DNA of 64,000 nucleotides from IMG/VR virus record IMGVR_UViG_3300012984_000016, positions 1 through 64,000 of that record. The stretch is one strand, 5' to 3'. The translations under genes and the position numbers were made by a program. This DNA is from a virus. Below are positions 3,357-17,425 of this stretch, one piece after another; position 1 is the stretch's first letter, and every line of letters starts with the position of its first letter. The notes below the pieces were generated by a model. It saw only the letters and a list, made by a program, of their open reading frames with translations. It was not told where the DNA came from and made no database searches.

Positions 3357-3390
3357 CTAGAGGGTCTCTGCAGCAGCAGGGGCCCTCTAG
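3357..3390 (+). terminator. stem-loop after the amidoligase operon
   Basis: CTAGAGGG (3357-3364) pairs with CCCTCTAG (3383-3390) around a GC-rich loop. No U-run follows, so it may act as an mRNA end or processing site. A TAGAAT at 3350-3355 overlaps it and could be a weak -10 box for the next gene. Confidence 0.45.
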
Positions 3391-3411
3391 CCGTGCTTGG
3401 AAGGGACGACC

Positions 3412-3666
3412 GTGGATGCAGTAGAGGCCCGAGCGCGTAGGGCAGCCAAAGACGCGCTGGAGGACGCTGCTAGGAAGGTCCTGGAGGCGGCAGAGCGAGC
3501 AGGCAGGGCAGCGGACCGTGCTGACGGCATCCGTGAGGGAACGGTGACGGGTGACATGTTCGCCGCAGCGTCAGCCCACCGTGATGCTGAGCGCGAGGCC
3601 CATGGGGCACTGGACGCGCTGATCAAGAAGCAGCGAGAGACGTACAAGAAGTTCCCCCAACGCTGA
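3412..3666 (+). CDS. small Ala/Arg-rich helical protein
   Basis: 84 residues from GTG at 3412, chosen because GAAGGGA lies the right distance before it; a TTG at 3397 has no such site. The product begins MDAVEARARRAAKD and is nearly all helix, rich in Ala, Arg and Glu, with heptad-like spacing that suggests a coiled coil. It ends basic (KKQRETYKKFPQR). No family recognised. It sits alone between a stem-loop and the promoter at 3671. Confidence 0.6.
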   Translation: MDAVEARARRAAKDALEDAARKVLEAAERAGRAADRADGIREGTVTGDMFAAASAHRDAEREAHGALDALIKKQRETYKKFPQR

Positions 3667-3670
3667 GCGA

Positions 3671-3697
3671 TTTGAACATGTCCTCACCGGGTACAAT
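3671..3697 (+). promoter_or_regulatory. predicted promoter upstream of the 3724 gene
   Basis: TTTGAA (3671-3676) and TACAAT (3692-3697), 21 bases start to start, with ACCGGG before the -10 box. This is the same core as at 1317-1344. The downstream gene has an AAGGGAGG ribosome site at 3711-3718. Confidence 0.65.
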
Positions 3698-3723
3698 CTT
3701 TGTGAGATTCAAGGGAGGACATC

Positions 3724-5052
3724 ATGCCGGTCGATAACTCAGCCCTCGACAGAGCCTGGTACCAGGACAACCGTCCGATGGTACAGTTCCTCGAGATGGT
3801 GGAGGACGAGGGCGTCGGCTCAGCCCCGTGGGAGCGGTCTGCCGCAAGGTGGATCCGTCGCATCAATGAGAACGGTGCGCTGTCCCCGGGGCTGACCAAC
3901 TCTGGGTGGCGGATGATGCTCATCCACCGCTACGACCTGCCGGACCACGGTGCCGCCACCCTACGGTGGGCCCGTGCCAACTTCGATGTCTTCCACTATG
4001 TGTGGCAGAACCGGACGACCTACGCACTCACCTGGCAGGAGATCCTCGACGAGATCTTCCCGGACGCGGATGACCTGGAGGTGCTCCGTGCCAACATGCG
4101 GGTCCGCCAGGGCACGTCCGATCGCATCATCAATCCGGGTGAGCCCATCTACGATGAGGAGACCGGCGACCCTGGCAACCTGACAGCGATCCTCGGGCAG
4201 GCCCTGACGGACGCTGTGCGCAACGCTGAGACGATGGCCTCCGGTCTGGCAGCCGTAGGCAGGGCCGCTGACTTGGCAGCCACGACCGGCAGGCCGGTGA
4301 TCATCGGTGACCAAGGTGCCGCTGCACCCACCAGTGAGGCGCTGTCCACCGGAGCCTCTCGCACAACGGTGACCAACGGTCGTCGTCGGTACGCACCTGC
4401 CAGGTACAACGGTGGCATCGGCTCGCCCAACGGCGTGTACGAGATGGTGCTGTCACGCCAGGACCAGGCCGGTGACCACGAGGTCATCCAGCGGTTCCGG
4501 TACGACCTCTACACCGTGCAGAACGGTCAACTGGCGAACCTTCGCATCGTGCGGTGCGACCAGAACGGTGGCCGAGGGTTCGGTACCGTCCAGGAGGATG
4601 GCAACCTGTGGCTGTGGTCCCGCTTCGGTGACCAGTCCGGCGAGCGATGGATCCTGATGGGTGAGATGCTGCTCCGCGACCTGCAGAGGTCTCACGCAGC
4701 GGGTGACACCTTGTTCCGGGGCACTACCTACACGGTGCCTACCCGGCTCACGCGTGAGTACGGCCTCGGTGACATCGAGGTGTCGGTCAGGTTCGATCCG
4801 CACTGCAACCGCTGTAACACAGGGGCTGGGGTCCAGCACAACGGGGCACTGCAAATCACCCTGTGCGAGGACTGCCACGTGCGCCTCAGCAACCAGGGGA
4901 TCAGGGAGACCGCTGTCGCTGCTCAGCGCACGGCCCCGCGACTCCCTCGCCGGGAGCCTGCCCGCTCTCCCCAGGACGCCCCAGCGGTCGCCAGATCCAC
5001 GACAATGGATCGTCGGCGTCCGTCCCAGATCGATCCCACCAACCTTCAGTGA
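3724..5052 (+). CDS. hypothetical protein with zinc-binding CxxC pair
   Basis: 442 residues. Residues 1-150 are acidic/aromatic and probably helical; the middle (about 215-390) looks beta-rich, with YEMVLSRQD and WLWSRFGDQSGERW. A treble-clef-like pair, HCNRCNTG and CEDCHVRLSNQG near residues 358-385, is typical of a structural zinc site. The last 50 residues are Pro/Arg-rich and probably disordered. No known family recognised. It is the first gene of a short run with the membrane protein at 5060 and the 62-residue protein at 5413. Confidence 0.6.
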   Translation: MPVDNSALDRAWYQDNRPMVQFLEMVEDEGVGSAPWERSAARWIRRINENGALSPGLTNSGWRMMLIHRYDLPDHGAATLRWARANFDVFHYVWQNRTTYALTWQEILDEIFPDADDLEVLRANMRVRQGTSDRIINPGEPIYDEETGDPGNLTAILGQALTDAVRNAETMASGLAAVGRAADLAATTGRPVIIGDQGAAAPTSEALSTGASRTTVTNGRRRYAPARYNGGIGSPNGVYEMVLSRQDQAGDHEVIQRFRYDLYTVQNGQLANLRIVRCDQNGGRGFGTVQEDGNLWLWSRFGDQSGERWILMGEMLLRDLQRSHAAGDTLFRGTTYTVPTRLTREYGLGDIEVSVRFDPHCNRCNTGAGVQHNGALQITLCEDCHVRLSNQGIRETAVAAQRTAPRLPRREPARSPQDAPAVARSTTMDRRRPSQIDPTNLQ

Positions 5053-5059
5053 GGTGCTG

Positions 5060-5416
5060 ATGTTCTCCACACTGCTCGGCATCATCGCCATCCCCGTAGG
5101 GTTGTGCCTGCTGTGGTTCACCTGGCTGTTCCTGCTGGAGTACCCAGTGTGCTGGATCCCCACGGTGATGGTGGCCGCTGCTATCGTCGTTGGGTGCATC
5201 CGCAGCCGACAGAACGATGGACGTAGGGCCCGCCGAGAGCGCCACGCGCTCCAGGTCGCAGCCCTGCAGAAGGCAGCAGAGGACGCCAGGACGGCCCAGT
5301 ACACCGCGTGGAAGCCCGTGGCAGAGCGGATGACCGCCGCGATCGCTGAGGCCCTCCCTGCGCCTGCTCCCAGGACCACCTTCGACCCCGTGATCGACGA
5401 GGAATTCGAGGGATGA
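5060..5416 (+). CDS. small membrane protein, two predicted transmembrane segments
   Basis: 118 residues starting MFSTLLGIIAIPVG at an ATG that follows GAGG. Two hydrophobic stretches fill residues 2-25 and about 30-47, followed by a basic CIRSRQNDGRRARRER segment and an Ala-rich cytoplasmic helix. The positive-inside rule places both ends inside the cell. Its stop overlaps the next start as ATGA, so the two genes are translationally coupled. Function unknown. Confidence 0.65.
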   Translation: MFSTLLGIIAIPVGLCLLWFTWLFLLEYPVCWIPTVMVAAAIVVGCIRSRQNDGRRARRERHALQVAALQKAAEDARTAQYTAWKPVAERMTAAIAEALPAPAPRTTFDPVIDEEFEG

Positions 5417-5601
5417 TGACCCGCCGACGCAGGCTGACACCAGCCAAGGAGCAGGCTCGCGTCGATGAGATCGCCCGCCTGAACGAGTACATGCGAAACC
5501 CGAACAGACCCACCACCATGCAGCCCTTGGTTGAGCCGGTGGATCTGTCCGGGTTCGATGAGCCGTGGTCCGTAGAAGAGTTCTTGGACGGCTTGGTCTA
5601 G
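5413..5601 (+). CDS. small hypothetical protein
   Basis: 62 residues, very basic at the N terminus (MMTRRRRLTPAKEQ) and acidic at the C terminus (DEPWSVEEFLDGLV). The start overlaps the preceding stop by four bases. Its stop codon shares the four bases CTAG with the stop of a convergent minus-strand gene. No family recognised. Confidence 0.6.
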   Translation: MMTRRRRLTPAKEQARVDEIARLNEYMRNPNRPTTMQPLVEPVDLSGFDEPWSVEEFLDGLV

Positions 5602-5687
5602 GACGCTTCCTTGAGGTCCTCGAGACGCTGCTCGACCTTCGTGAGCACGCTCTCCCTCAGGGTGGTCAGGGTGTCAGTGCCGGACAT
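5598..5687 (-). CDS. 29-residue microprotein
   Basis: A short gene reading MSGTDTLTTLRESVLTKVEQ and ending LEDLKEAS. It is preceded by AGGAGGTGA, the strongest ribosome site in this region, which is the main reason to call it. The product would be a single amphipathic helix. It is the last gene of the leftward tail/accessory operon and its TAG overlaps the plus-strand stop within CTAG. Function unknown. Confidence 0.5.
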   Translation of the reverse strand: MSGTDTLTTLRESVLTKVEQRLEDLKEAS

Positions 5688-5752
5688 TGCGTGTCACCTC
5701 CTAGGTCGTGTTGAAGACCATGATGACACATCATTCCCCGAATGTCTACGGG

Positions 5753-6016
5753 TTACGCAGGCGGATCTTGCGGGTCACGCTTGCGAGCGGGAACCCAACG
5801 CTTGCCCTTGCCTACCGTGAAGTGCCACCCAAGCGTGAGCGCAGCGCCGAGCAGGACCGGCCACACCAACCATGGGGACACCTCGTCGTGCACCCACTCA
5901 CTGACCGTTCCGCCGTCTCTACCGTCGGTGACACCACGGTACTCGTAGATGCAGAACGCTACGACCAGCACCGCCAGCAGGATGAAGAACAGCAGCCACC
6001 ACCAGCGAGCACTCAC
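5753..6016 (-). CDS. small membrane protein with two transmembrane segments
   Basis: 87 residues from a GTG that overlaps the previous stop (GTGA). It has a Trp/Leu-rich first segment (ARWWWLLFFILLAVLVV), an acidic loop with EYRGVTDGRDGG, a second segment near residues 48-66 and a basic tail with KRKRD-like charge. Size and topology fit a holin, but it is not next to the endolysin and could equally be an accessory membrane protein of the tail-fibre operon. Confidence 0.55.
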   Translation of the reverse strand: MSARWWWLLFFILLAVLVVAFCIYEYRGVTDGRDGGTVSEWVHDEVSPWLVWPVLLGAALTLGWHFTVGKGKRWVPARKRDPQDPPA

Positions 6017-6999
6017 GCGAACGACTCCGCGAACACGACCGAGCCTTCGCCCTCGCCGGGGAAGGTGCGGTCTCCGTCGATGCCGGTGGCAGTCACCAGC
6101 ACGTCGTGGTCCCCGACGATGTCGGTGTCACCCGAGGCCCAGTTCACACGGACCTGACCCTTGTTCGTGTTCTGGTCGAGGACCGTGGCGTCCTTGACGA
6201 GCACGGTGTCGGTGCCGTCGTACTTGATCCGCACCACGACATCGCCGTAGGAGGACAGGTCCATCGGCTGACCCTTGTCGGTGAGAGTGATGACCAGCGG
6301 GGGCAGCGTGTCTCCGGCTCGGATGGCGTAGGGCATGTCGTACGGTCCCATCTTGAGATCTGCCTGGTTGGGTTCGATGATGATGCCCGGTCGGTCGACC
6401 GTGATGATCGTACCGATGTTCGCCCAAGGAGTACCCCAGGACTCCTGCGAAGGGATGGTGACAGGGGACACCTTGAGTGACAGGACCAGCGTCGGCAGCC
6501 CCCACGACTCGGCCGAGAGGATGGACTGCGGCACGGCCACGAAGTAGTTCGTCGCGGTCGGGACTCCCCACGACTCGGCGGTGGGAATCGAAGTCGGGGA
6601 CAGCGTGCGGGGACCTGGCGTGAAGGTCGGCTGGCCCCAAGCCTCCTGCGAGGCGATGGACGCAGGCGAGCACACCACGCCAAGAGCCGCTGTGGGCGTT
6701 CCCCAGGCCTCCTGAGAGGCGATCGAGGCCGGAGCCACCTGGAGCCCCTGCTGTGCCGTGGGAGAGCCCCAGGACTCCGCTGAGCCGATCGAGGTCGGGG
6801 ACGCCGTGAGCGGGCCCGAGGTCTTGACCGGCGTTCCCCACGATTCTGCAGACGCAATCGAAGTCGGGGTGGCCACAACGTTCGGACCCGTGAGGGTAGC
6901 GGTGGGCGTGCCCCATGACTCAGACGAACCGATCGTGGTCGGGTTGACCGTGATGGCGTTGGTGGTGACACCAACCTCCCAGACCTTGAGAGCACCCAT
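6013..6999 (-). CDS. tail-fibre-type protein with eight ESWG repeats
   Basis: 328 residues starting MGALKVWEVG; the start overlaps the previous stop as TGATG. From about residue 15 to 200 there are eight repeats of roughly 20-24 residues with the core S-I-x-S-x-E-S/A-W-G-x-P-T. Such I-x-S-x-E-x-W/F-G-x-P-T repeats are known from phage and prophage tail proteins and make short beta-elements. The last 110 residues, with AGDTLPPLVITLTDKGQPMD, resemble the beta-sandwich at the start of baseplate upper proteins (BppU_N-like). It probably belongs to the adsorption apparatus. Confidence 0.65.
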   Translation of the reverse strand: MGALKVWEVGVTTNAITVNPTTIGSSESWGTPTATLTGPNVVATPTSIASAESWGTPVKTSGPLTASPTSIGSAESWGSPTAQQGLQVAPASIASQEAWGTPTAALGVVCSPASIASQEAWGQPTFTPGPRTLSPTSIPTAESWGVPTATNYFVAVPQSILSAESWGLPTLVLSLKVSPVTIPSQESWGTPWANIGTIITVDRPGIIIEPNQADLKMGPYDMPYAIRAGDTLPPLVITLTDKGQPMDLSSYGDVVVRIKYDGTDTVLVKDATVLDQNTNKGQVRVNWASGDTDIVGDHDVLVTATGIDGDRTFPGEGEGSVVFAESFA

Positions 7000-7439
7000 C
7001 AGTTGTTCACCGCCGCCTGCACGAGGTCGTAGAACTCCACGGCCCGCGCCTCGGCGTCCTCGTACGAGATGTCGGTGGTCCCACGCAGCGGAGGCGTGAT
7101 GCCGTACTTCCAACGAATGGTCTCGCGGTCACCAGCCGGAGCGAGCGAAGCCTCGTACATCTTGTTGGGCTGCTTCTGCTCCATGACCCACACGTACAGC
7201 GCCTTGAAGATTCCTTCGTCGCGGCGGTTCGGGATGGTCCACAGCATCATCGTGGTGAGGCAGGTCTTCACGCACTCCAGGCACGGGGTGCCCCGCAGTC
7301 CGTGGAAGTAGAAGAACGACACCACGTTGTTGCCGGGGTCGATCGCCACTGCCACCTCAGCCGTGGGGTCGATGGACGTTGAGGTCTGCTTCTCTTCGTA
7401 CGTCAGGAACCGGAACTCGGTACCAGCGTGGCCGCTCAT
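6999..7439 (-). CDS. possible GNAT-fold acyltransferase, coupled to the ANL ligase gene
   Basis: 146 residues; its ATG overlaps the ANL ligase stop (ATGA) and its stop overlaps the next start (TGATG). The central part, RRDEGIFKALYVWVMEQ followed by KMYEASLAPAGDRETIRWKYG, follows the order of the GNAT acetyl-CoA-binding motif (R-x-x-x-G-hydrophobic, helix, strand, then R/N..Y-x-x-G). A CLECVKTC cluster is unusual for that family and might bind metal. If the reading is right, it would move an activated acyl group to an amine. The call is tentative; the coupling to the ligase is certain. Confidence 0.35.
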   Translation of the reverse strand: MSGHAGTEFRFLTYEEKQTSTSIDPTAEVAVAIDPGNNVVSFFYFHGLRGTPCLECVKTCLTTMMLWTIPNRRDEGIFKALYVWVMEQKQPNKMYEASLAPAGDRETIRWKYGITPPLRGTTDISYEDAEARAVEFYDLVQAAVNN

Positions 7440-8758
7440 CGCAGTCCCTTCTTCCTGATCTTCCCGGCTGGGCTCATAGGCAATGATCCCACCTTGGTCA
7501 TGGTCTTGGGCACAGCGTAGTGCGGAACCCAGGACCGCACGTACTCCAGCACCTGCGCCTCGGTGGCGTCTCCTTCGTAGAACCCCTGCACCTGTTGGCC
7601 GGTGCGACGGTCCGACACTCCGATGACTGCGGCGGCTCGCACTCCCGGATGCGTGAGCATGGCTCGCTCGACTGAGGTGGCGTACACCGTGTTGCCGTTC
7701 ACCAGGATCTTGTCCGAGCGCCTTCCTTCGATTACCAGTTCGCCGTCAGTAACACCCACGTAGTCTCCGGGTGCCACCCACTTCGGCATGTCCTGGATGC
7801 CAAGGAAGCCGATCTTCTTGTTCGCCGTCGAGTCCCCTCGCACGGAGATCTCACCGATGCCTGACTCGTCCGAGTCGATGCGCACCTCGATCGCATGGAA
7901 CGCAGCACCCACTGACCGAGTCGGCTCAGTGATCACCTTCGCAGAGATGAGCCCGCACTCAGTGGTCGCGTACAGGTTGACCAGTGCTACGTTCGGGAAC
8001 TGGCGCAGCCACTTCTCCTGCAACTCCATCGGCAGGTCGTTGCTGGACGAGTGGATCATGCGGAGCGACGGGAAGGTGGCCGAGGAGAAGCCCGCCTCGA
8101 TAAGTGAACGAATGATCGTGGGCCCCGCTGCTGCCATGTTACACCCATGGCGGTTGACCACCTCGGCGAACACCTGCGGTGTGACCTTGCGCTGGTCGAT
8201 GACCATGGTTGCTTCGTTCAGTGTGGTAAGCAGACCTACGATCGTCGCTACGCCGACAGCGAACGGAGTGCACACGAACACCCGCTGCCCACGGGAGTAG
8301 CCGTACTCGTACAGGTCGAGGTCGCGGCAGTACCGGGTCATCCTCGTGAGGTTGTGGCTGAAGATCTTCGGCCGACCCTCGGTCCCGGACGACCCGAACA
8401 TCAGCGCGCCGCCGTACTGGGAAGCAGCAGGGGACGATCTGGCGAGGTTCTGGGCGTACTCCGGGGTGCTGGGGTCCAGGCACCCGGTCCCGACGCCCAC
8501 GACCGCCCTGGCACGGGCCGTGCGTTTGATCGCTGAGCGCGCCATGCGAGGCAGGAAGCCGGGGAGCGGGAGGGCTGCGCGACCGGACCGCGCCACGCCC
8601 ATGAACAGTTCGTACGACTCGAGACGGTTGTCTGTTGTGACCGCTACGACCGAGTGGGGCGGAGCGATGTCACCTATGACTGATGACACTGCTCGGATCC
8701 GCTCGTCGAGTTCCGCTGCTGTGAGTGAGCGATCGCCCTCGACGATCGCTGGGGTCAC
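7436..8758 (-). CDS. ANL-superfamily acid:AMP ligase (acyl-CoA-synthetase-like)
   Basis: 440 residues from a GTG overlapping the preceding stop (GTGA). All core motifs of adenylate-forming enzymes are present: the phosphate loop FGSSGTEGRPK (121-131), the aromatic/acid motif YATTE (263-267), the ribose-binding GD (331-332), the hinge GRRSDKILVNG (345-355) and the C-terminal catalytic lysine in SPAGKIRK (Lys433). It is shorter than most acyl-CoA synthetases (about 500-550) but complete, close in size to MenE-like enzymes. It should activate a carboxylic acid as acyl-AMP. Its position inside a tail-gene operon, flanked by overlapping genes, suggests acylation of a virion or envelope component, but the substrate is unknown and no carrier protein is evident nearby. 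Confidence 0.85.
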   Translation of the reverse strand: MTPAIVEGDRSLTAAELDERIRAVSSVIGDIAPPHSVVAVTTDNRLESYELFMGVARSGRAALPLPGFLPRMARSAIKRTARARAVVGVGTGCLDPSTPEYAQNLARSSPAASQYGGALMFGSSGTEGRPKIFSHNLTRMTRYCRDLDLYEYGYSRGQRVFVCTPFAVGVATIVGLLTTLNEATMVIDQRKVTPQVFAEVVNRHGCNMAAAGPTIIRSLIEAGFSSATFPSLRMIHSSSNDLPMELQEKWLRQFPNVALVNLYATTECGLISAKVITEPTRSVGAAFHAIEVRIDSDESGIGEISVRGDSTANKKIGFLGIQDMPKWVAPGDYVGVTDGELVIEGRRSDKILVNGNTVYATSVERAMLTHPGVRAAAVIGVSDRRTGQQVQGFYEGDATEAQVLEYVRSWVPHYAVPKTMTKVGSLPMSPAGKIRKKGLR

Positions 8759-9270
8759 GGGTGCGACTCGCGGTACGTGTTGAACTCGGCTCGGAGGTTC
8801 TGCAGGTCCTGACGGAACGACACCTGCTGGTTGGTCAGCGCAGTGAGACCGGCTGCCGCACGGTTGATCACGTCGAGGAAGGCCTGCATGGTCTGGAAGC
8901 CGATGAGGTCCGCGAGGAAGCCGATCTCATCGTCCGTCTGACCGTAGTCACGGAGCATGATCAGCGTCGGGATGATGGCCGGTGCGACGTTGGCGATCTC
9001 TTCCTTCGACACGTACCCGTCCTGAGTGGCCTCCCGCAGCGAGTTGAGAGCGCCACGCATGGAGGTGACGAGTTGGTCGCGAGTCACCCCTGTGCCGTTC
9101 GGCTGCGTGTCGGTGGCCGGGTAGCGCAGGGCGTCCTCGGCGATCTCAGCCGCGACAGCAGCACGGGGACCGTCGAGCAGTTCGAACCCAGCGGTGAGGA
9201 TGCTCACCAACTTGCTGCCGACCTCGAACCGCGTGACCGTGCCGTCACCGTTCATCCACTCGTGGAACAT
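8755..9270 (-). CDS. hypothetical protein, tail-operon gene before the ANL ligase
   Basis: 171 residues, mostly helical, with DDEIGFLADLIGFQTMQ and a C-terminal coiled-coil-like stretch (QQVSFRQDLQNLRAEFNTY). The stop overlaps the ANL ligase start by four bases. No Asp-Ser-Leu phosphopantetheine site is present, so it is not an acyl carrier protein. It follows the 9272 gene by one base and is probably co-translated with it. Confidence 0.6.
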   Translation of the reverse strand: MFHEWMNGDGTVTRFEVGSKLVSILTAGFELLDGPRAAVAAEIAEDALRYPATDTQPNGTGVTRDQLVTSMRGALNSLREATQDGYVSKEEIANVAPAIIPTLIMLRDYGQTDDEIGFLADLIGFQTMQAFLDVINRAAAGLTALTNQQVSFRQDLQNLRAEFNTYRESHP

Positions 9271-9271
9271 G

Positions 9272-10165
9272 TCAACTCCTGACTACGATGAACGGACCGC
9301 CGTCGACGGCTCCTGAGGTCTGAGCAAGGTTCTTGATTGGTACACCGAAGGGCGAGTAGTTGACACTGGACCCACCGTTGGGGATGAAGAAGGGAGAGAC
9401 GGTGGTGAACGCGATGCCGTCGATGTTGGGGGACAGCCCAGAGTGCGACTGACCGAAGCCGTCGCCCGTGTCGAGGTAGGCCTCGCCACCCAGGTACACC
9501 TCCGCGAGCCGACCGCGCACACCCGAGTTGTCCTCACTGACCACGAAGGGCCAGTAGATGACATTCGACCCGCCGGTCTCCCTCTTGTTGATCAGCGAGC
9601 CGACTACGCCAGGGTTGATCACCGCCTGACGCATGGTCATCAGTTCGGCGGGCTCCCACGCCGCTGCGTTGAGCCCCTTCTTCACGTAGCACTTCTCGGT
9701 GCCCGTGTCGGACGAGGCGGACGTACCGGACATCGCCACGACCTGATCTGCCACCACGTTGTCCGAGAGGTAGTACGGCACCAGCGGGAACATGCCGAAG
9801 AACGATCGGGTGCTGCCCCATGTGGCGTCCTTGGCTCCGGTGCCAGCAGGGGCCGGTCCCTCCAGGCAGATGAACACATGGTTGGGACCGACACTCATCG
9901 TGAGAATGAAGGTGCCGGACAGCGAGGTGGCTCCGGTGTAGATGTACAGCGTCTTGTTCGAGGTGCCGATGGCCGAGCAGGTGATGGCAGCCGCCGCGAC
10001 CGCGTCGATGGTGAACGACACCAGCCGGTCCTGGCCCGAGGCTGAGGAGTTCGAGTAGGTGAACGGGTACGAGGCCCCAGTTTTGGTCCACCCTGCAGTG
10101 GACATCACCGAGTCGATCTGCGCCTGGATGCCCGTACCCACGACGGAGCCTGTGTAGAACGTCAT
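9272..10165 (-). CDS. putative minor tail / tail-fibre protein
   Basis: 297 residues starting MTFYTGSVVGTGIQAQIDS, low in charge and rich in Gly, Ser, Thr and aromatic residues. Its opening (generation of a random-coil-free N terminus with YTGSV, then TAGWTKTG) is typical of phage receptor-binding or structural proteins that describe themselves only by composition. It is two bases from the next upstream gene at 10168, within the tail-fibre operon. Exact role unknown. Confidence 0.55.
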   Translation of the reverse strand: MTFYTGSVVGTGIQAQIDSVMSTAGWTKTGASYPFTYSNSSASGQDRLVSFTIDAVAAAAITCSAIGTSNKTLYIYTGATSLSGTFILTMSVGPNHVFICLEGPAPAGTGAKDATWGSTRSFFGMFPLVPYYLSDNVVADQVVAMSGTSASSDTGTEKCYVKKGLNAAAWEPAELMTMRQAVINPGVVGSLINKRETGGSNVIYWPFVVSEDNSGVRGRLAEVYLGGEAYLDTGDGFGQSHSGLSPNIDGIAFTTVSPFFIPNGGSSVNYSPFGVPIKNLAQTSGAVDGGPFIVVRS

Positions 10166-10167
10166 GA

Positions 10168-11589
10168 CTAGTTGGCCTCCACCAATTGAGAGATCTTGTC
10201 TCGGCCCAGGAACAGGTGACCCACCTGGCCCAGCCCGCTGTACAGCGGACCCTCGGCCACCAGGTAGTCGTAGGGCCAGGCTCCAGCAGCGAAGTCGGTG
10301 CCCGGGGCGCGCTCGAACAACACTTCATCGATCACGGCTGCGTTGTTGGGGGTGCTGTAGCAGATGCTGACACCGCCGAACACTCCCGGACCCGTGGCAC
10401 CGCCTGTGCCGGGTGTCGTGGCCTCCAGCACCTTGGTCCAGGGACCACTGATGGACGTGCCGGTGTACGTCTCGTGCCGCGTGAAGTTCTCGTACGGTGC
10501 GAAGTCCAGCGCGGTGGGGAACTGAGCCGCGTCGTACTTCACGTACGTACGGTGCTGGATGTACTGGCCCGAGGTGATCAGAGTCGCGTAGTTCTGACCC
10601 CAGATGAACCCACCCTTGGTGTCCGAGCCTGCGTACGCCACACCGTACTGAGCACCAGGCTCCGAAGAGTTGATGCCGATCTGCAGAGGTCCACCTACGT
10701 TGAACTGGATCTTGAACGTGCCGCTGACGTACTTGAAGGTGAGGATCGAAGCGATCCCGAGGTCACGGTTGTTGTCCGTCGAGTTCGAGTCTGGGCTGAT
10801 CAACTGAGTCAACACGTTGCTGTTGATGGACAGTTGGTTGCCGACGATGGTCAGGTTGGAGGAAGCACTCACGTTCGACAGCGGAGCCTGCGGAGGGATG
10901 TCGGCTGCCGTGCAGTCCCAGTTACCGTTGGCCCGGGCGAAGATGTCGTAGAAGTAGGAGCCGCGAGCGGTCGGGAACCCACGGTTGGCTGCGGCCTTGA
11001 CTACCAGCCGGTTGCACTTGGCACCAGAGACCGTGGACCAGAACCCTGCGCGGGTGTTGCCACGGGTGGTGGTCACCGGGCTCTGACTGCGGTCCGTGAT
11101 CAGAAGACGCAGGGTCTGCTTGCCGTTGATGCTGACGAACCAGCCGTTGCTGCGTGCACCAAGAATGACGGTGAACTCGGTGCCAGCCGGGATCCAGCAC
11201 CGAGCCTCTTGTCCGTTGTCCATGTACGTGCTGCCGAACGGCTTGCCCGTGGACTGCTGGGACTCGGACCAGAGCCGGAACACGAACCCCTCGCCGCCCG
11301 GGTCAGCGAACACACCGAAGTACACTCCGGCTGCACCGTCAGGAGCGGAGCCCGGAACTCCGATGCACACCCCCGCCTGATCCTGAACCGGCAGATCGGC
11401 CTCGACGATCCCAGCCCAGTTCGGGTTGTTCATCAACATGAACCGCTTGCTGCTGCCACTCATGGTGGTCGACGAGGAGACCGCCTGACCACCCGAGACT
11501 GAGTACCCGTTGTTGACGGACAGCGGGGTGAGATCTGCAGCGCCGACATTGAAGGGGGACGAGAAGACCTGGGTGAGAAGCGTAGTCAT
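10168..11589 (-). CDS. putative minor tail protein with beta-sandwich (lectin/LamG-like) composition
   Basis: 473 residues, almost all predicted beta structure. Segments such as GVYFGVFADPGGEGFVFRLW, NGWFVSINGKQTLRL and GGVSICYSTPNNAAVIDEV look like strands of concanavalin-like domains used for glycan binding. Low charge and many Asn/Ser/Gly/Thr residues agree with a virion surface role. It is the largest product of this tail module and a good candidate for host recognition. Confidence 0.55.
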   Translation of the reverse strand: MTTLLTQVFSSPFNVGAADLTPLSVNNGYSVSGGQAVSSSTTMSGSSKRFMLMNNPNWAGIVEADLPVQDQAGVCIGVPGSAPDGAAGVYFGVFADPGGEGFVFRLWSESQQSTGKPFGSTYMDNGQEARCWIPAGTEFTVILGARSNGWFVSINGKQTLRLLITDRSQSPVTTTRGNTRAGFWSTVSGAKCNRLVVKAAANRGFPTARGSYFYDIFARANGNWDCTAADIPPQAPLSNVSASSNLTIVGNQLSINSNVLTQLISPDSNSTDNNRDLGIASILTFKYVSGTFKIQFNVGGPLQIGINSSEPGAQYGVAYAGSDTKGGFIWGQNYATLITSGQYIQHRTYVKYDAAQFPTALDFAPYENFTRHETYTGTSISGPWTKVLEATTPGTGGATGPGVFGGVSICYSTPNNAAVIDEVLFERAPGTDFAAGAWPYDYLVAEGPLYSGLGQVGHLFLGRDKISQLVEAN

Positions 11590-11630
11590 CGTCCGTCCTT
11601 ACTGGTGTCGGTCAGGTCGCAGCCGGGAGG

Positions 11631-12059
11631 CTACAACTTGAAGATCTTCGTGGCACCGTTGGACCAGGCGATGGTCACGTCACCACCGTTGGGGATGACC
11701 GGGAAGTTGGTGCCCGTGTCGATGTAGCCGATGAGACGCTGCGCGGTCGCAGCCACATCCGCGCCGCCGCCGACCGCCGAGGACTGGAACAGCAGCCCGT
11801 AGTGGTTGGATGCGTTGGTCGGGACCGCTGTGTACACCACGTCGTCAGCGTCGGCGACGCCACCCGTGATGGACTTCGTGGTCAGAGCGCCAGAGGTGAC
11901 GTGGAGCACGCCGCCTGCAGTGGTCAGGTCCGACACGAACTTGTGAGCAGCGTTGAACGTGTAGGCCCGAACGAGGGCCAACTTGATGACAGCGGTGTCC
12001 CAGTCGATCTCACCCGCCAGGAACCCCTCGCGGCCTGGATCGAACAGTGAGTTAGCCAT
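11631..12059 (-). CDS. putative structural (tail) protein
   Basis: 142 residues starting MANSLFDPGREGFLAGEIDW. This opening, a self-described 'FDxGREGFL.GEIDW' element, is one I associate with small structural proteins of actinophages encoded near tail fibres. The rest is beta-rich with VTIAWSNGATKIFKL at the end. RBS CGAGGAG precedes the ATG. Confidence 0.6.
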   Translation of the reverse strand: MANSLFDPGREGFLAGEIDWDTAVIKLALVRAYTFNAAHKFVSDLTTAGGVLHVTSGALTTKSITGGVADADDVVYTAVPTNASNHYGLLFQSSAVGGGADVAATAQRLIGYIDTGTNFPVIPNGGDVTIAWSNGATKIFKL

Positions 12060-12101
12060 GGTCTGTTACTCCTCGCTCGTCTGGTGTGGCACTTGACTGA
12101 A

Positions 12102-12138
12102 GGTGGGGCAAGCACTGGCCACAGGCACTCGCCCCACC
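12102..12138 (-). terminator. stem-loop between tail-module genes
   Basis: GGTGGGGC (12102-12109) is the exact inverse of GCCCCACC (12131-12138), with partial further pairing (ACT/AGT) inside. It lies just downstream of the 12143 gene and before the 12059 start on the minus strand, consistent with a transcription attenuator or RNA processing site. No U-run. Confidence 0.5.
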
Positions 12139-12142
12139 CGTC

Positions 12143-12481
12143 TCAGTTGACCTTGACGACGGCGACCGAGAGGCCGACGACCGACGAGTAGGTCAGGTAC
12201 GCGCGACCGTCGGCCGGGTTGGCGAACGACGAGCCCCGGAGCGGGCCGACGATGCGCTCACCCGTGGCGGGCAGCGTGACCGTGGCGTCCGGGATGGCGA
12301 CACCCGTGCCGGGGTCGACATCCGGGTACGAACCGATGGTGACGACCGCGACCGTGCCGGTGGTCTTGAAGTGGAGGTAGGTGCCGTCGCCGCACGGCAC
12401 CGTGTCGCCACCCGCGTTGCAGGTGTTGTACGTCGGGTTGGTACCGGCGAGGCTCGGAGCCTGTGCGGTCAGGGCTGCCAT
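12143..12481 (-). CDS. small beta-rich protein, possible head/tail decoration
   Basis: 112 residues from the ATG at 12481 (AAGGAG before it). The product begins MAALTAQAPSLAGTNPTYN and reads like a compact beta domain with two Cys (TCNAGGDTVPCG). Proteins opening 'L.AQ.P...GT.PTY....GGD' are common in phage virion modules. It follows the HTH protein gene. Confidence 0.55.
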   Translation of the reverse strand: MAALTAQAPSLAGTNPTYNTCNAGGDTVPCGDGTYLHFKTTGTVAVVTIGSYPDVDPGTGVAIPDATVTLPATGERIVGPLRGSSFANPADGRAYLTYSSVVGLSVAVVKVN

Positions 12482-12533
12482 GACATGTACTCCTTGGGGT
12501 GGGTCGGGGTGTGGCAGGTCTGCAACAAGTGTG

Positions 12534-13076
12534 TCACGTGCGGGAGGGCTCTTCCGTACTCGGCAGCGCAGCCAGTTCCCCAGCGAAGGCCGAAACGATG
12601 TACGACTCGAGAGCGATCCGGTCCTGTGGGCACAGGTGCTCACCCATGAATTCGAGCAACTTGGTCTGCTGTTGGCGGATGGCATCGACGTGCAGGAAGA
12701 ACTCGGCCTTGACGCCGAACAGGCCGAACAGTTTCGCTCGCTGATCCTGGCAGGCGGTGACCCGCGCGAGGCAGGAGATCTTCGTCTGCTCGGAGTTGGT
12801 CTTGTTGAACAACTTCCATGCCTCAGCCTTGACGAGGTCGAGTTCCTCCAGGGCCTTGATCGTGTTGCCGAGCACGTCCCGCAGCAGGTCCGGGTTGTTG
12901 CGGGCCTCGTCCCGGATCTTCTCGATGTACTCCTTGCGGTAGCGGCTGACCGTGCCGGGGCTGACCTCGATGTCCTTGGCGATCTCGATGTTCGAGAGGC
13001 CCTTCTTGATCCCCACGAACGCCTTCTGCTTGCGCTCGCCGATCTTGTACTTGGACTTGGTCTTGCCCTTGGACAC
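12534..13076 (-). CDS. helix-turn-helix protein, candidate small terminase subunit
   Basis: 180 residues from a GTG at 13076 chosen for the GGAGGT site four bases upstream; a GTG at 13088 is the longer alternative. After a Lys-rich start, residues about 20-50 (FVGIKKGLSNIEIAKDIEVS then PGTVSRYRKEY) form a classic HTH like those of small terminases and resolvase-type regulators. The remainder is helical, with LLEFMGEHLCPQDR. Small terminases bind the packaging site; however, portal and the presumed large terminase lie at the other end of the window, so this call needs a circularly permuted or split arrangement. A regulator is the alternative. Confidence 0.5.
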   Translation of the reverse strand: MSKGKTKSKYKIGERKQKAFVGIKKGLSNIEIAKDIEVSPGTVSRYRKEYIEKIRDEARNNPDLLRDVLGNTIKALEELDLVKAEAWKLFNKTNSEQTKISCLARVTACQDQRAKLFGLFGVKAEFFLHVDAIRQQQTKLLEFMGEHLCPQDRIALESYIVSAFAGELAALPSTEEPSRT

Positions 13077-13235
13077 GACTACCTCCACGCTCAGAACGGC
13101 ACGATGCGTACTAGTTTCGTGCTAGTTCAAGCGTGATGGTGAACTGCCAGGCGAGCAAAGTAGTGCCTGACGTCGATGGTTTCTACTCGTTTCGAGTCAG
13201 AAGTAGTACGTAACTGACGATCGAGTAGGACGGAA
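13077..13235. repeat. non-coding region with nested inverted repeats
   Basis: About 160 bases without a gene, lying upstream of the HTH/small-terminase-like gene. CTACTCG (13183-13189) is the inverse of CGAGTAG (13222-13228); inside are ACTCG-TTT-CGAGT and GTCAG (13196-13200)/CTGAC (13214-13218). A second ACTAG...CTAGT pair lies near 13110-13128. Such a symmetric region beside an HTH gene could be its operator or a packaging (pac/cos) site. No convincing promoter boxes seen. Confidence 0.45.
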
Positions 13236-13451
13236 CTAACGCTCGTCGGCTCGGTGCTGGCCGGGGTAGCGCACGTCGCGGGGGTTGTTGCAGCCGGAGC
13301 AGAAGGCCCCGGGGTTGTACCGGGACAGGACCACGCCGCAGTCCTCGGAGGCGCACACGCGGCGCTCTCCGTAGGATCGGGAAGGGGTTCGGCCCGAGGG
13401 CCAGGGGACGGTGCCGAGCCCCACGCGGGAGGCTGGCTTCCCCTCAGTCAC
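13236..13451 (-). CDS. small zinc-ribbon protein
   Basis: 71 residues from a GTG overlapping the upstream stop by eight bases; a GTG at 13478 would add nine residues. The core VCASEDCGVVLSRYNPGAFCSGC holds four Cys in a ribbon, of the type CxxxxCxxxLSRYNPGxxCxxC found in small actinobacterial and actinophage DNA-associated proteins. The flanks are basic. It may bind DNA or another replication protein. Confidence 0.6.
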   Translation of the reverse strand: MTEGKPASRVGLGTVPWPSGRTPSRSYGERRVCASEDCGVVLSRYNPGAFCSGCNNPRDVRYPGQHRADER

Positions 13452-13707
13452 CCGGAGGCACCGACCAGCCGAGAGCACCTTGGCGCTGGACCGCGAGGCG
13501 GTCGGCTGCCGAACGGAGAAGGATCTCCGCGTGCTCCAGGGCCATGGTGGACGACACCGAACCGCGAACGATCCCGGGCATCTCCAACCAGTTCTCGCCT
13601 TGCAAACCTGACACCCTCTGCATCACCACCGCCGCCTGGTTGACCTCGGCGAGTGCGGGGTCGACTGCGATGATGTACTCGGGCTGGGGAAGCGGCTGCA
13701 CAGACAC
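13444..13707 (-). CDS. hypothetical small protein
   Basis: 87 residues from a GTG at 13707 with GGAG six bases upstream. An in-frame GTG at 13803 would add 32 Arg-rich residues but lacks a ribosome site; the reading frame is open there, so the start is uncertain. The product (VSVQPLPQPEYIIAVDP...) has a helix with STMALEHAEILLRSAADRL. Unknown function; lies between the RuvC-like gene and the zinc-ribbon gene. Confidence 0.5.
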   Translation of the reverse strand: MSVQPLPQPEYIIAVDPALAEVNQAAVVMQRVSGLQGENWLEMPGIVRGSVSSTMALEHAEILLRSAADRLAVQRQGALGWSVPPGD

Positions 13708-13824
13708 AGCGGACTCCGATTCTGTTGTAACGTCTGGAGTGCGCCCTCGCGGGTCGGAGTCAAGCCCTCTCGCACAGGGTCGAGTCTTTCGCGCTACGGC
13801 CACGCTTGGCGATATGGGGTAATC

Positions 13825-14289
13825 TTACGCAGCCTGAGCGTGGTCTGCAGCGAGCCGAGCGACCGCCAGAGCGTCCGCCACGTCGTCACTGGTGGTGTCA
13901 ATCCAGGGCTGGGCAGCGGCCACCATCATGGCCTTGTCTGCCTTGCCGGAACCGGTGGCGAACTTCTTCGCTGCGGTACCGATGATCGGGGTCCAGTCCA
14001 CCCCGTACCCGGCTTCCCACATGCGCAACTTGACGATGCCCACGACCTCGCCGAGCCGGGACAGGTTGGTCGGGCGAGAGAAGGCGTACTCCTCGATCGC
14101 CATGATGTCGAACGTGTAGCCCTTGCAGAAGCGGATGAGCCGGTCGGCGATGTAGTCAGCCCGCTGGACGTTGACACCATCCTTGGGTGCGGTCTTGAAG
14201 TTGGCGTGCTTCAGGACCACGTCCTTCTCGGAGTCGTAGATCACTACGCCCGGGGACGTGAGTGAGCAGTCGAGCCCGAGTACGATCAC
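13825..14289 (-). CDS. RuvC-like Holliday junction resolvase
   Basis: 154 residues from a GTG overlapping the previous stop (GTGA). The RNase H-fold acidic residues are in place: LGLDCSLTSPG (first Asp), AIEEYAF (Glu) and TSDDVADALAVARLA (terminal Asp pair), as in RuvC and its phage relatives. It would cut branched DNA during recombination or before packaging. Length is close to E. coli RuvC (173). Part of the long replication operon. Confidence 0.8.
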   Translation of the reverse strand: MIVLGLDCSLTSPGVVIYDSEKDVVLKHANFKTAPKDGVNVQRADYIADRLIRFCKGYTFDIMAIEEYAFSRPTNLSRLGEVVGIVKLRMWEAGYGVDWTPIIGTAAKKFATGSGKADKAMMVAAAQPWIDTTSDDVADALAVARLAADHAQAA

Positions 14290-14612
14290 GCCTCGACCCA
14301 CTTGCCATCTCGGATCCACCCATGCTTACCACAGCAGTCGGAGGCGAGGATCGAAGGCTCGGTGTGCAGCGGGTCTGCGGAGTGGAACTCGTGGGACTGG
14401 ATGCCGGAGGCGACCCACGTCGGGAAGTACCCCGGGTCCACGTCGCCCCGCTGGACGTGCGGCCACAGGTGCCCGTCGCACAGGTGCCACCAGAGGATGT
14501 GCATGATGTCGTAGATCTGCTCAGTCTCGTCGCCACGCTTGTACCAGGTGATCGCGGTGTCGCCGCCGAGGAAGGTGGCTCCGCGCTCCTCAAGTTCTTC
14601 CCTGGTCATCAT
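14286..14612 (-). CDS. hypothetical protein
   Basis: 108 residues starting MMTREELEERG. The tandem ATGATG overlaps the stop of the 49-residue protein upstream. It contains WWHLCDGHLW and SDCCGKHGWIRDGKW, i.e. His/Cys/Trp-rich stretches that may bind metal. The end WVEA overlaps the RuvC-like start. No family recognised. Confidence 0.55.
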   Translation of the reverse strand: MMTREELEERGATFLGGDTAITWYKRGDETEQIYDIMHILWWHLCDGHLWPHVQRGDVDPGYFPTWVASGIQSHEFHSADPLHTEPSILASDCCGKHGWIRDGKWVEA

Positions 14613-14758
14613 CGGTGTGCCGACTTCACGGTTGCGACATTCGCACAGGTGTGCTTCATCTCCACCCCGTTGACCGTGGTCTTGCGCCAGCCGCACGTGG
14701 GGCAAGGCGCACCCATCCAGACCAACGGAGGGATCGTGGCTGTGCCGACTGCTGTCAT
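14609..14758 (-). CDS. 49-residue zinc-finger-like microprotein
   Basis: Reads MTAVGTATIPPLVWMGAPCP and continues with TCGWRKTTVNGVEMKHTC. The CPTCGW...HTC arrangement fits a small zinc ribbon. It is bracketed by overlaps on both sides (TGATG after the whiB stop; ATGATG at its own stop), which makes it a real member of the operon in spite of its size. Confidence 0.55.
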   Translation of the reverse strand: MTAVGTATIPPLVWMGAPCPTCGWRKTTVNGVEMKHTCANVATVKSAHR

Positions 14759-15285
14759 CAGACGCTCACCCCTACCTCGACTGCCTCGCGGAACCTAGTG
14801 GACATCGTGCCGTCGAGGAAGGCGATCAGGGAGGCGACCAGTTCGAGACCGGTCGGCATCTCTCCGTACCCGTAGCCCTCTTCGAGCAGGTGATCGCGGA
14901 AGCACCGCTGGTCGATGGGATCCATAGTGTGAACCATGGCTCCGCAGATTGCCGGCGAAGGCTGCTGCCTGTAGAAACCAATGAGTGATGCCACCAGTTC
15001 GAGTCCTGATGGCACCTCGTGACGGTCGTACCCTTCCTCGATCAGGTAGGTCTTGAACTTCCGCCGCTCCCCTTCTGCCATGCCTCCCCACACGCCGTAC
15101 TCTTCGCGGTGGACCAGCGCACCCTCCAGACACCGAACCCGCTCGACACACGAGAAGCACAATCGCGTGGCCAGGTCCTCGCGGTCGACCCGCCCGTCTT
15201 CCATCCGACCGTCGTCCACGGATGAGAAGAACAACTCAGGGTTGGTCTCGCAGTGGTGTTGTTGTTCCAGGGTGGTTACTGTCAT
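14758..15285 (-). CDS. WhiB-family iron-sulfur transcription regulator with duplicated C-terminal element
   Basis: 175 residues. Four Cys (12, 43, 46, 52; the last three as CxxCx5C) and the turn GVWGG (64-68) followed by EGERR are the WhiB signature: a [4Fe-4S] cluster domain that contacts the principal sigma factor. WhiB proteins are restricted to actinobacteria and their phages, and the phage copy in TM4 blocks superinfection and septation. Unusually, residues 80-104 and 132-156 are near-copies (L-x-EEGY-x4-E-x-P-x-GLELVASLI-x-F), giving a tail about 90 residues longer than the minimal fold. The start codon lies inside a predicted stem (15283-15353). Confidence 0.85.
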   Translation of the reverse strand: MTVTTLEQQHHCETNPELFFSSVDDGRMEDGRVDREDLATRLCFSCVERVRCLEGALVHREEYGVWGGMAEGERRKFKTYLIEEGYDRHEVPSGLELVASLIGFYRQQPSPAICGAMVHTMDPIDQRCFRDHLLEEGYGYGEMPTGLELVASLIAFLDGTMSTRFREAVEVGVSV

Positions 15286-15353
15286 GAGGCCTGTTCCCTA
15301 AAAGATCTTCGGGAGTGGTAGCCGCCACCCCTCAGAGGGAACTATGCCTCATG
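15283..15353 (-). promoter_or_regulatory. stem-loop in the whiB leader that includes the start codon
   Basis: On the transcript, CATGAGGC (from 15353-15346) pairs with GCCTCATG (15290-15283), the latter containing the whiB ATG and the AGG just before it. After a 3/2-base internal loop, GTTCCCT (15342-15336) pairs with AGGGAAC (15299-15293). The apical loop holds a GTGG...CCAC mini-hairpin. The arrangement would hide the ribosome site, implying translational control or an operator at the DNA level. The rest of the gap, 15354-15391, shows nothing clear. Confidence 0.6.
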
Positions 15354-15391
15354 CCCTCACCCAAGCCTGACCGAGGCTCGCGAAATGGGCC

Positions 15392-16651
15392 CTATGGCCT
15401 AGTGCCGCCGTTAATGTTGATCGTGATCGACAGGCTCACGGTCGGCCCACCCTCGACGCTCGCGGGGAGGGTCACGGAGAACGGCTCCAGCGTCGCCTGG
15501 GCGGCTTCTCCCTGCTCGCCAGCCTCGGGGCTAGGCTCCACGGCGGCTTCGGCCTCCTCGTCCGTCTCCAGGTCGCTGAGTGCCTCGGAGGTCTCCTCCG
15601 GCGACGGAGGCTCGGGCGTGAGGCGCGGGCCGTTGATGAACTCGACCTCGCCCACCACGTCGGACTCGCAGTACAGCGCGGGCTCGAGAACCGACCGGCG
15701 TTCGAAGTCGTACTTCCGCACGCCCACGGTCTTGTGCCCCTGCCAGATGCGCGTGTACTTGAAGAACTCGCACAGCGTGGACTGGATGTTGCACAGCGAC
15801 AGGTCCAGCGGCTCCCCGTCATGGTCGAGAGGCCGGACGAAGGGCAGGTCGCGTGCTGCGAACTCCTCCCGTTGGTGCGCGTGCAGCCAGCGCATGACCA
15901 TGAGCAGGTTCCGAGGCTTCACGTCGGGTGCGAGCATCGCCCACATACCGCTGCGTGCGCCGGGTCCTGCTTGGGCCCACTGGTTCTGACCGTACGGGAG
16001 CACGGGGTCCGGTCCGGTGAGCAAGTCCACCACGATCTGGTGGGCCAGGAACTCGCCGAGGCCGGGGATGTCCTTGAAGACCTTGAAGATGGTCTGCACG
16101 TCCGGAGACGCCTCGACCCTTCGGTGGTACTCGGGCATCATGTCCGCGATCTTCACGAACAGGCGACCGACGTTCTCGATCTTGTCCTCGCCGCCCTCGT
16201 CGTTGTACCCCGCCACACGGTAGGCGTCACCGAAGACCTTGAACACGTCGGAGTCCTGCTCGCGGAGGACCTTGATGAACACGTCCACGTCGTAGTCGTC
16301 CACGGTGGATGCGACCAGCCGGTGCGTGGGCGGCTGGGATCCCATGAGACGGTACATCACGACGTTGAACATCTTGTCCAGGTCGGAGTAGTCGGCGTTC
16401 TCCACGATGGATGACACGACGTACTGCGTGCCGGGATCCAACTCGCGGTAGTTGTTGGTGATGAACTCGGCCTGCAGGATCGGGTCCTGAGTCCAGGGCC
16501 ACTCGCGCTGCATGCACACACGCCGGAACCACACGGCTTGACGTTCGGCCACGAACCGCCAGTACAGATCGTACTGGGTGGGGTCGAAGCAGGTGATGTC
16601 GAAGTCCTTCTCGGCGACGTACCGCTTGACCGAGTCCGTGGCCTCTGTCAT
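15392..16651 (-). CDS. aGPT-PPlase / 5-hmdU-kinase-helical-domain family protein (thymine hypermodification)
   Basis: 419 residues. The pattern matches my memory of the phage thymine-hypermodification family (alpha-glutamyl/putrescinyl thymine pyrophosphorylase and the related HMUDK helical domain): YDLYWRFVAERQAVWFRRV (27-45), WPWTQDPILQAEFITNNYRE (51-70), a helix-hairpin-helix-like IPGLGEFLAHQIVVDL (195-210), AGPGARSG (228-235) and NIQSTLCEFFKY (289-300). In studied phages these enzymes replace the pyrophosphate on 5-hydroxymethyluracil in DNA with an amine. No P-loop is fused to it. The last 70 residues are acidic and then beta-like. ATGA-coupled to the next gene. A thymidylate-synthase homologue lies in the same operon region. 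Confidence 0.65.
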   Translation of the reverse strand: MTEATDSVKRYVAEKDFDITCFDPTQYDLYWRFVAERQAVWFRRVCMQREWPWTQDPILQAEFITNNYRELDPGTQYVVSSIVENADYSDLDKMFNVVMYRLMGSQPPTHRLVASTVDDYDVDVFIKVLREQDSDVFKVFGDAYRVAGYNDEGGEDKIENVGRLFVKIADMMPEYHRRVEASPDVQTIFKVFKDIPGLGEFLAHQIVVDLLTGPDPVLPYGQNQWAQAGPGARSGMWAMLAPDVKPRNLLMVMRWLHAHQREEFAARDLPFVRPLDHDGEPLDLSLCNIQSTLCEFFKYTRIWQGHKTVGVRKYDFERRSVLEPALYCESDVVGEVEFINGPRLTPEPPSPEETSEALSDLETDEEAEAAVEPSPEAGEQGEAAQATLEPFSVTLPASVEGGPTVSLSITININGGTRP

Positions 16652-17031
16652 TTCTTGCCCTTCTTCTTCTTACGCCCCTTGCTAGCCTTGGGCGGCTTGG
16701 GCTTCGGAGGGGGCGGTGTCTTCGGAGACGGACCGTGGCCCGCCACTGCTCCCTTTGTGTAGTGCGGCTTCCACTTCTTGACAGAAGCCTCCACCTTGTG
16801 TTCCTTCTCAAGCGCGGACACCTTGCGCTCCTCGCGGGCGACATCGAAGTCCGGGTCCATAGTCTTGCGTGTCTTCTTCCAGGCCTCGTAAATCCTCCCC
16901 ATACCGGTCTGGCGCTTCTCAGGAGACATGGCGTCGTCCTCGTCGAACACCGCGTCAGCCGTGGAGAAGAACTCCAGCAGGGGACCGGTGGCCGCGATGA
17001 GATCGTCGACCCTGCGGTCAGCCTTGGGCAT
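16648..17031 (-). CDS. hypothetical protein with Lys/Pro-rich tail
   Basis: 127 residues starting MPKADRRVDDLIAATG. The first 90 residues are helical; the tail is a run of Pro and Lys (KTPPPPKPKPPKASKGRK and more Lys), likely to bind nucleic acid. The start overlaps the upstream gene by 14 bases, and its stop overlaps the thymine-modification-family gene as ATGA. No family recognised; the tight coupling suggests a partner of that protein. Confidence 0.55.
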   Translation of the reverse strand: MPKADRRVDDLIAATGPLLEFFSTADAVFDEDDAMSPEKRQTGMGRIYEAWKKTRKTMDPDFDVAREERKVSALEKEHKVEASVKKWKPHYTKGAVAGHGPSPKTPPPPKPKPPKASKGRKKKKGKK

Positions 17032-17425
17032 CGAGAGTTCCCTTGAACCGCTCCGCTGCCTGAGCCACGCCCTTGAGCGAAGCCACCATCGCCTGCGATG
17101 CCTCATGCTTGGCAATGTCCTTCCGTGCTGCCTTGCGGATCCGACGCTCCTGCGCCGGAGTCAGCGGACGCCCACCGTTCTGCTCGATGTAGTGAGCGAT
17201 GCGATCCTCAGCGGACAGCGGAGCCGGGGCTGTGCCGCCCGAGCCGTTGATGATGGAACGGAGGTAGCGGTCGTGCGCCTCCTGTCCCTCGAACTCCTTG
17301 CGGTCGAAGCCGACCGGAGTACGGGGCGGGGGTGCGGGCCGGTTCACGGTGGGTCGGGAGTTGCGTGCGTACTCCTCCATGAGCGGCTTGACCTCGTCAG
17401 GCGCGGGCTCGCGGACCTCTGTCAT
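17018..17425 (-). CDS. hypothetical basic helical protein
   Basis: 135 residues starting MTEVREPAPDEVKPLMEEY, Pro-rich near residues 25-45 and then helical and basic (LTPAQERRIRKAARKDIAKH). The start overlaps the nuclease stop (ATGA) and is preceded by GAGG. Function unknown. Confidence 0.55.
   Translation of the reverse strand: MTEVREPAPDEVKPLMEEYARNSRPTVNRPAPPPRTPVGFDRKEFEGQEAHDRYLRSIINGSGGTAPAPLSAEDRIAHYIEQNGGRPLTPAQERRIRKAARKDIAKHEASQAMVASLKGVAQAAERFKGTLDAQG

Follow-up and report, generated by a model that had tools for sequence, protein, structure and literature searches.

Several described systems offer points of comparison for the ANL-superfamily acid:AMP ligase gene that lies among tail genes in the IMG/VR record IMGVR_UViG_3300012984_000016 (74,305 bases, of which the first 64,000, with a G+C content of 64%, form the window analysed here). 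The closest are the class I ANL acyl- and aryl-coenzyme A (CoA) ligases, which include FadD13 (3R44), MenE (5X8F) and the 4-coumarate and benzoate CoA ligases. Within the same superfamily, the amide bond synthetase McbA forms amides without CoA. Regulation of an AMP-forming ligase by a GNAT protein is known from AcuA and AcsA, as described in PMC11255334. Among phages, virion glycosylation genes encoding glycosyltransferases have been proposed for mycobacteriophage Maravista, with the capsid as the proposed target (PMC11256854), and phage M6 provides an example of a thymidine hypermodification system.

The ligase of the window resembles the class I CoA ligases in both domains, in the core motifs and in the A10 lysine, but it differs from them in its low identity to the aligned relatives (at most 29%), in an N-terminus lacking about 30 residues that bacterial relatives carry ahead of the first conserved block, and in its setting within a tail cassette. 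McbA (6SQ8, 6H1B) is its second-best sequence relative in the PDB (2.6e-16, next to 1.6e-16 for FadD13). As in the AcuA-AcsA pair, a ligase gene stands beside a possible GNAT gene and a P-X4-G-K motif is present; in contrast to that pair, the GNAT identity is unproven and the context is that of a phage tail. Phages of the Maravista type likewise encode enzymes proposed to decorate virion proteins, although no acid activation is involved there. Homologues of gp055 and gp058 are common to M6 and the phage studied here, whereas M6 has no ANL match and the window genes include no homologues of M6 gp051-gp054. Another virus contig, 3300012943_000386 of IMG/VR (L048), carries two intact ANL ligase genes, but these are 20-25% identical to the phage ligase and adjoin genes for methyltransferases and an MFS transporter as well as NAD/purine genes, and not tail genes.

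We find the locus best explained as a probably acquired, intact ANL enzyme under late tail-accessory expression, with acylation of an amine on the virion or the host surface as the leading guess. This reading is tentative, with a probability of about 0.35.

An ANL ligase gene among tail genes

The ligase gene occupies positions 7436-8758 on the minus strand and encodes 440 residues. Its start was placed at the GTG at 8758, which restores the first conserved block, while an alternative gene call began at an internal ATG at 8602. Two Pfam domains score well over their curated cut-offs: AMP-binding across residues 3-312 (4.2e-33, 115 bits vs 29.9) and AMP-binding_C across residues 363-433 (4.9e-12, 47 bits vs 24.5). 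Invariance was judged from an alignment with seven plasmid-borne bacterial ANLs, to which the phage enzyme is 26-29% identical (19-25% to other viral ANLs), and every invariant residue is kept (G125, G128, K131, Y263, E267, D332, R346, D349, G355 and K433). The motifs comprise the P-loop SSGTEGRPK, YATTE with Y263 and E267, the GD at D332, the hinge region with R346 and D349, and the A10 lysine K433, in agreement with the first-pass annotation, which had reported a full adenylate-forming set including Lys433. Judged from the sequence, this match in motifs and domains is far beyond chance.

A specific named ligase (FadD3, MenE and the like) could not be assigned, the best NCBIfam model reaching 136.7 bits against a cut-off of 476 and none of the best 25 models listed passing its own. 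An AlphaFold2 model built on a seven-row alignment has a predicted local distance difference test score (pLDDT) of 55, with low confidence in the N-terminal domain and more in the C-terminal one. When this low-confidence model was compared with the PDB by Foldseek, the top matches listed were all ANL enzymes (E down to 1e-21), with low TM-scores. The ANL fold is more firmly supported by the Pfam match than by this structural search. A pseudogene was ruled out, since all invariant residues are kept, and the sequence is most simply read as that of a catalytically competent enzyme.

The gene belongs to an operon-like series on the minus strand that runs from 12.7 to 6.0 kb. It begins with a phrog_16194 tail protein (12143-12685; 6.1e-15; a shorter gene call, 12143-12481, starts at 12481, which is also possible) and a 142-residue conserved phage protein of phrog_644 (11631-12059; 8.9e-25) that serves as anchor of the cassette. 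Two probable virion proteins, so classed from their sequences, follow with 473 (10168-11589) and 297 residues (9272-10165); neither matches Pfam or PHROG models, and no relatives of them were found. Next come a helical 171-residue orphan directly upstream of the ligase (8755-9270), without a homologue in phages or IMG/VR, then the ligase, a 146-residue orphan that is possibly GNAT-like at motif level (6999-7439) and, last, a 328-residue minor tail protein with ESWG-type repeats (6013-6999). The 171-residue protein contains a single EF-hand-like loop, QDGYVSKEEI (EF-hand_5, E 0.014, under the cut-off).

The 328-residue protein matches the minor-tail families phrog_13352 (4.2e-16) and phrog_8501 (6.3e-9), and by tblastn it has matches among the minor tail proteins that Mycobacterium prophages encode; its C-terminal stretch shows a weak likeness to the baseplate domain BppU_N (E 0.044, under the cut-off). 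The main tail operon, with tape measure, Dit and an endopeptidase/Tal-type protein, lies at 42-54 kb. What had initially been described as a tail module does hold minor-tail PHROGs along with phrog_644 and the tail family phrog_16194, but because the main operon is about 30 kb away it is better seen as a separate accessory tail cassette. Relatives of the phrog_644 protein occur at 35 IMG/VR loci, with an identity of 56-80% at 34 of these, and in 141 phage records. Together with the ESWG protein it makes up a recurrent pair, an ESWG match being present in about half of the 35 contigs, mostly 1-5 kb downstream. The ligase and the 146-, 171-, 297- and 473-residue proteins are encoded in none of these 35 contigs (E 1e-4), so that the ligase cassette looks like an insertion into an otherwise common tail module and not like one of its conserved parts. 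As the flanking genes are minor-tail PHROGs, co-expression with virion proteins would be the simplest reading.

The last four genes lie at the positions first given, and direct reading of the junctions confirmed their overlaps. The 171-residue gene and the ligase overlap by the four bases GTGA (CCCGTGACC), the ligase and the 146-residue gene by the four bases ATGA (GCGATGAGC), and the 146- and 328-residue genes by one base in TGATG (AACTGATGGG). The first-pass annotation took such overlap to mean stoichiometric co-translation, which is overstated. Overlaps of one or four bases are found in 15 of the 64 same-strand neighbour pairs of the window, and those of the cassette are therefore ordinary compaction; moreover, the ligase starts with GTG, has no clear Shine-Dalgarno sequence and shows a codon adaptation 2.1 standard deviations below the gene mean (z -2.1). 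The overlaps indicate, as far as sequence can, co-transcription and probable translational coupling, without showing equal stoichiometry, and the start codon, the lack of a clear ribosome-binding site and the codon index together suggest a lower or foreign expression of the ligase. Its atypical codons and its absence from the tail cassettes of the 35 related contigs further suggest a fairly recent acquisition, probably by horizontal transfer from a bacterium. The exact start/stop overlaps on both sides make an assembly insert or a pseudogene unlikely, and from the same junctions and the phage surroundings we reject the idea that the window is misassembled or contaminated with bacterial DNA.

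A possible acylation pathway

In the proposed pathway, the ligase would activate a carboxylic acid, at whose identity we can only guess, with ATP to form an acyl-AMP, a step that its motifs support. The acyl group would then go either to CoA or directly onto an amine. As relatives, the CoA ligases and McbA score about alike, so that this second step may use either acceptor and direct amide formation is chemically open. As a third step, we guess that the acyl group, once activated, is placed on an amine, either in a virion protein or in a host-surface molecule, with the 146-residue protein as acyl transferase or accessory. Inserted into a late accessory tail cassette, the ligase gene would be expressed together with the minor tail proteins. 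In its narrower form, a two-enzyme phage system expressed from the tail cassette whose acyl target is an amine on the phage's own tail, or else on the host surface where the phage attaches, the proposal is unlikely.

The 146-residue protein enters this pathway through a motif string, TIPNRRDEGIFKAL...KYGITPP, with AGGAAGAAGG ahead of it. The stretch TIPNRRDEGIFKALYVWVMEQ...IRWKYGITPPL aligns with 2OZH (XCC2953), which has a GNAT fold; the alignment spans the core that binds acyl-CoA as well as the 'YGF' motif, at an E value of 1.8. A mini-profile of six GNAT proteins scores the protein such that 59 of 2000 shuffles do as well (p of about 0.03); with 2OZH added only one of 2000 does, a comparison that is partly circular. 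A single-sequence AlphaFold2 model has a pLDDT of 52, and the Foldseek search with it returned a few weak matches to SpeG N-acetyltransferases, none of them significant. PF11090, the T7 gp13 family, presumably GNAT-related, was followed as another GNAT lead and dropped, as its only weak match lies elsewhere (30177-30251).

A number of points weigh against the acylation pathway. The 146-residue protein has no match in Pfam, NCBIfam or PHROG, and at E 10 there is no match anywhere in the genome to the GNAT families PF13508 and PF00583. In the GNAT motif A, R/Q-x-x-G-x-G/A after strand 4, the protein reads RDEGIF, with the arginine and the glycine kept and a phenylalanine at the last position. 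The label of acyltransferase is therefore a lead at motif level, significant neither by profile nor by fold search, and of the proposal in the first-pass annotation the well-supported part is an ANL ligase that is intact and so placed that its gene would be transcribed along with tail genes, a two-enzyme acylation pathway being plausible. No acceptor of the acyl group has been identified, and no search was aimed at one. Nor does late co-expression imply virion modification, as the late genes of phages can include auxiliary metabolic genes too.

To these points comes the single occurrence of the neighbourhood, within the sensitivity of the searches run. The first-pass annotation had itself counted a neighbourhood seen just once as evidence against its reading, and so far this is the case, no second ligase-GNAT-tail arrangement having been found in IMG/VR, among INPHARED phages or on GTDB contigs. 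Exact-pattern scans of IMG/VR and GTDB detected no relative of the ligase, and those of IMG/VR no close relatives of the 146-, 171-, 297- and 473-residue proteins or of the kinase-family protein described below; such scans see close relatives only, which makes this absence provisional. Ten viral ANL loci, L048 among them, came up in a looser alignment-motif scan of IMG/VR; all are distant, and no such arrangement is present in the nine for which gene lists were read. In annotated 'phages', among them those of Listeria, Staphylococcus and Acinetobacter, tblastn matches to the ligase were judged, from the records, to be bacterial DNA filed as phage, namely unannotated fragments or ordinary bacterial acs, fadD and entE genes. 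Many of the matching records (Listeria, Staphylococcus, Acinetobacter MD-2021a and Salmonella) look like bacterial genome fragments. In the literature we found no paper on phage tail acylation, only works on neighbouring topics.

Base-modification genes, host and other features

Three further minus-strand genes bear on thymidine modification. A 419-residue protein of the 5-hydroxymethyl-deoxyuridine (5-hmdU) DNA kinase helical-domain family is encoded at 15392-16651 (PF18723 HMUDK_hel, 4.4e-54; homologue of M6 gp055, 4.9e-12). A thymidylate-synthase-like protein at 23864-25054, likely a dUMP hydroxymethylase, matches PF00303 (1.6e-20), phrog_5131 (6.4e-67) and M6 gp058 (1.5e-31), and a thymidylate-kinase-like protein follows at 25051-25698. 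For M6 gp051, gp052, gp053 and gp054, phmmer scores in the window genes, which leave out the last 10 kb of the record, are at chance level. The phage DNA may thus contain 5-hmdU or a derivative, without the M6-type gp051-gp054. Near the kinase-family gene, in an overlapping cluster, a match to phrog_4786 'cysteine dioxygenase' (1e-30) was seen at 18306-18803 on the minus strand.

The phage is known from environmental DNA alone, and its host is probably an actinobacterium. A transglycosylase-like domain, PF06737, which is found mainly in Actinobacteria and their phages, is present (E 3e-15), and sequence searches place the relatives of the tail genes among Mycobacterium phages; together with the G+C content these features suggest the assignment. 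The PF06737 protein lies past the window end (locus L002, 5026-5529, minus strand), as does a papain-family protein (3547-4404, minus strand, E 1.6e-4). The terminase-region protein has no match among annotated phages.

Elsewhere in the window, an Amidoligase_2 protein (1e-34) is encoded beside a class II glutamine amidotransferase (GATase_6, 5e-15) at 407-1294 and 1376-2512 on the plus strand. The two are a possible amide-forming pair, and as phage papers name both, it is probably not new. A NADAR domain protein (28579-29043, minus strand, E 2e-26) belongs to a family that we take to be linked to ADP-ribose chemistry, in defence or counter-defence, and an FkbM-type methyltransferase (E 1e-11) is found at 34109-34831 on the plus strand. 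On L048, the region 3357-18248 encodes the two ANLs, two methyltransferases, an MFS transporter, a Transferase-family protein (PF02458), an adenylosuccinate-synthetase-like protein, NAMPT and a nucleotidyltransferase-NUDIX protein; a phage may here carry a biosynthetic cluster next to genes for NAD recycling.

Alternative roles and biological meaning

The ligase gene might instead serve auxiliary metabolism and encode an ordinary acyl- or aryl-CoA ligase feeding lipid, envelope or catabolic metabolism of the host, carried as late-operon cargo in an incidental tail setting and unrelated to the 146-residue protein. Its nearest relatives, at 29% identity or less, are indeed generic FadD, MenE, 4-coumarate and benzoate CoA ligases and unassigned AMP-binding proteins; its atypical codons, and the fact that it is not conserved along with the tail module, would fit cargo picked up recently, and L048 has its ANL genes amid clear metabolic cargo. 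The tight overlap on both sides, however, suggests integration into the tail cassette over loose cargo, and no other gene of a matching pathway was seen nearby, so that we hold this role to be somewhat doubtful. The small neighbours could also have no enzymatic tie to the ligase at all, the 146- and 171-residue proteins serving the tail cassette as structural components or chaperones and the ligase alone being a moron-like insertion. Small orphan genes are common in phage tail cassettes, and both proteins are without significant family match and without relatives, but the GNAT-like motif string and the adjacency to the ligase render this arrangement improbable.

The enzymes for hydroxymethyl-dU provide an alternative home for the ligase pathway, which the first-pass annotation does not weigh. 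If the phage makes 5-hmdU DNA, the ligase and the 146-residue protein might help to build or cap the modified base, for example by N-acylating its amine. The kinase-family, thymidylate-synthase-like and thymidylate-kinase-like proteins fit such chemistry, and with no gp051-gp054 homologues among the window genes its downstream part must come from other genes. Yet the kinase-family protein occurs in 331 annotated phage records while the same collection has no credible phage ANL, and the ligase sits with tail genes, the base-modification genes beginning about 6.6 kb away; a contribution to hypermodification seems quite improbable. By analogy to AcuA acting on AcsA in Bacillus, the 146-residue protein might, as a GNAT, acetylate the catalytic Lys433 and so switch the ligase off. 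P427-MSPA-G432-K433 fits P-X4-G-K, and the two genes are adjacent and overlap; PMC11255334 and PMC11619455 present GNAT lysine acetylation as an established control of AMP-forming ligases. The motif is nevertheless weak evidence, since every ANL has a generic A10 motif close to it; the 146-residue protein is unproven as a GNAT, and a short infection cycle would be an odd setting for such control, which makes a regulatory pair quite improbable.

Even as plain cargo, the ligase is an ANL enzyme encoded intact within the tail cassette of a phage, and of this we found no second example. If, as in the preferred reading, the ligase acylates amines of the virion or the envelope, it would represent an acid-activation route for modifying the phage adhesion machinery, besides glycosylation. 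Such a chemical decoration of the adhesion apparatus would be undescribed before and may have a bearing on attachment and on virion stability.

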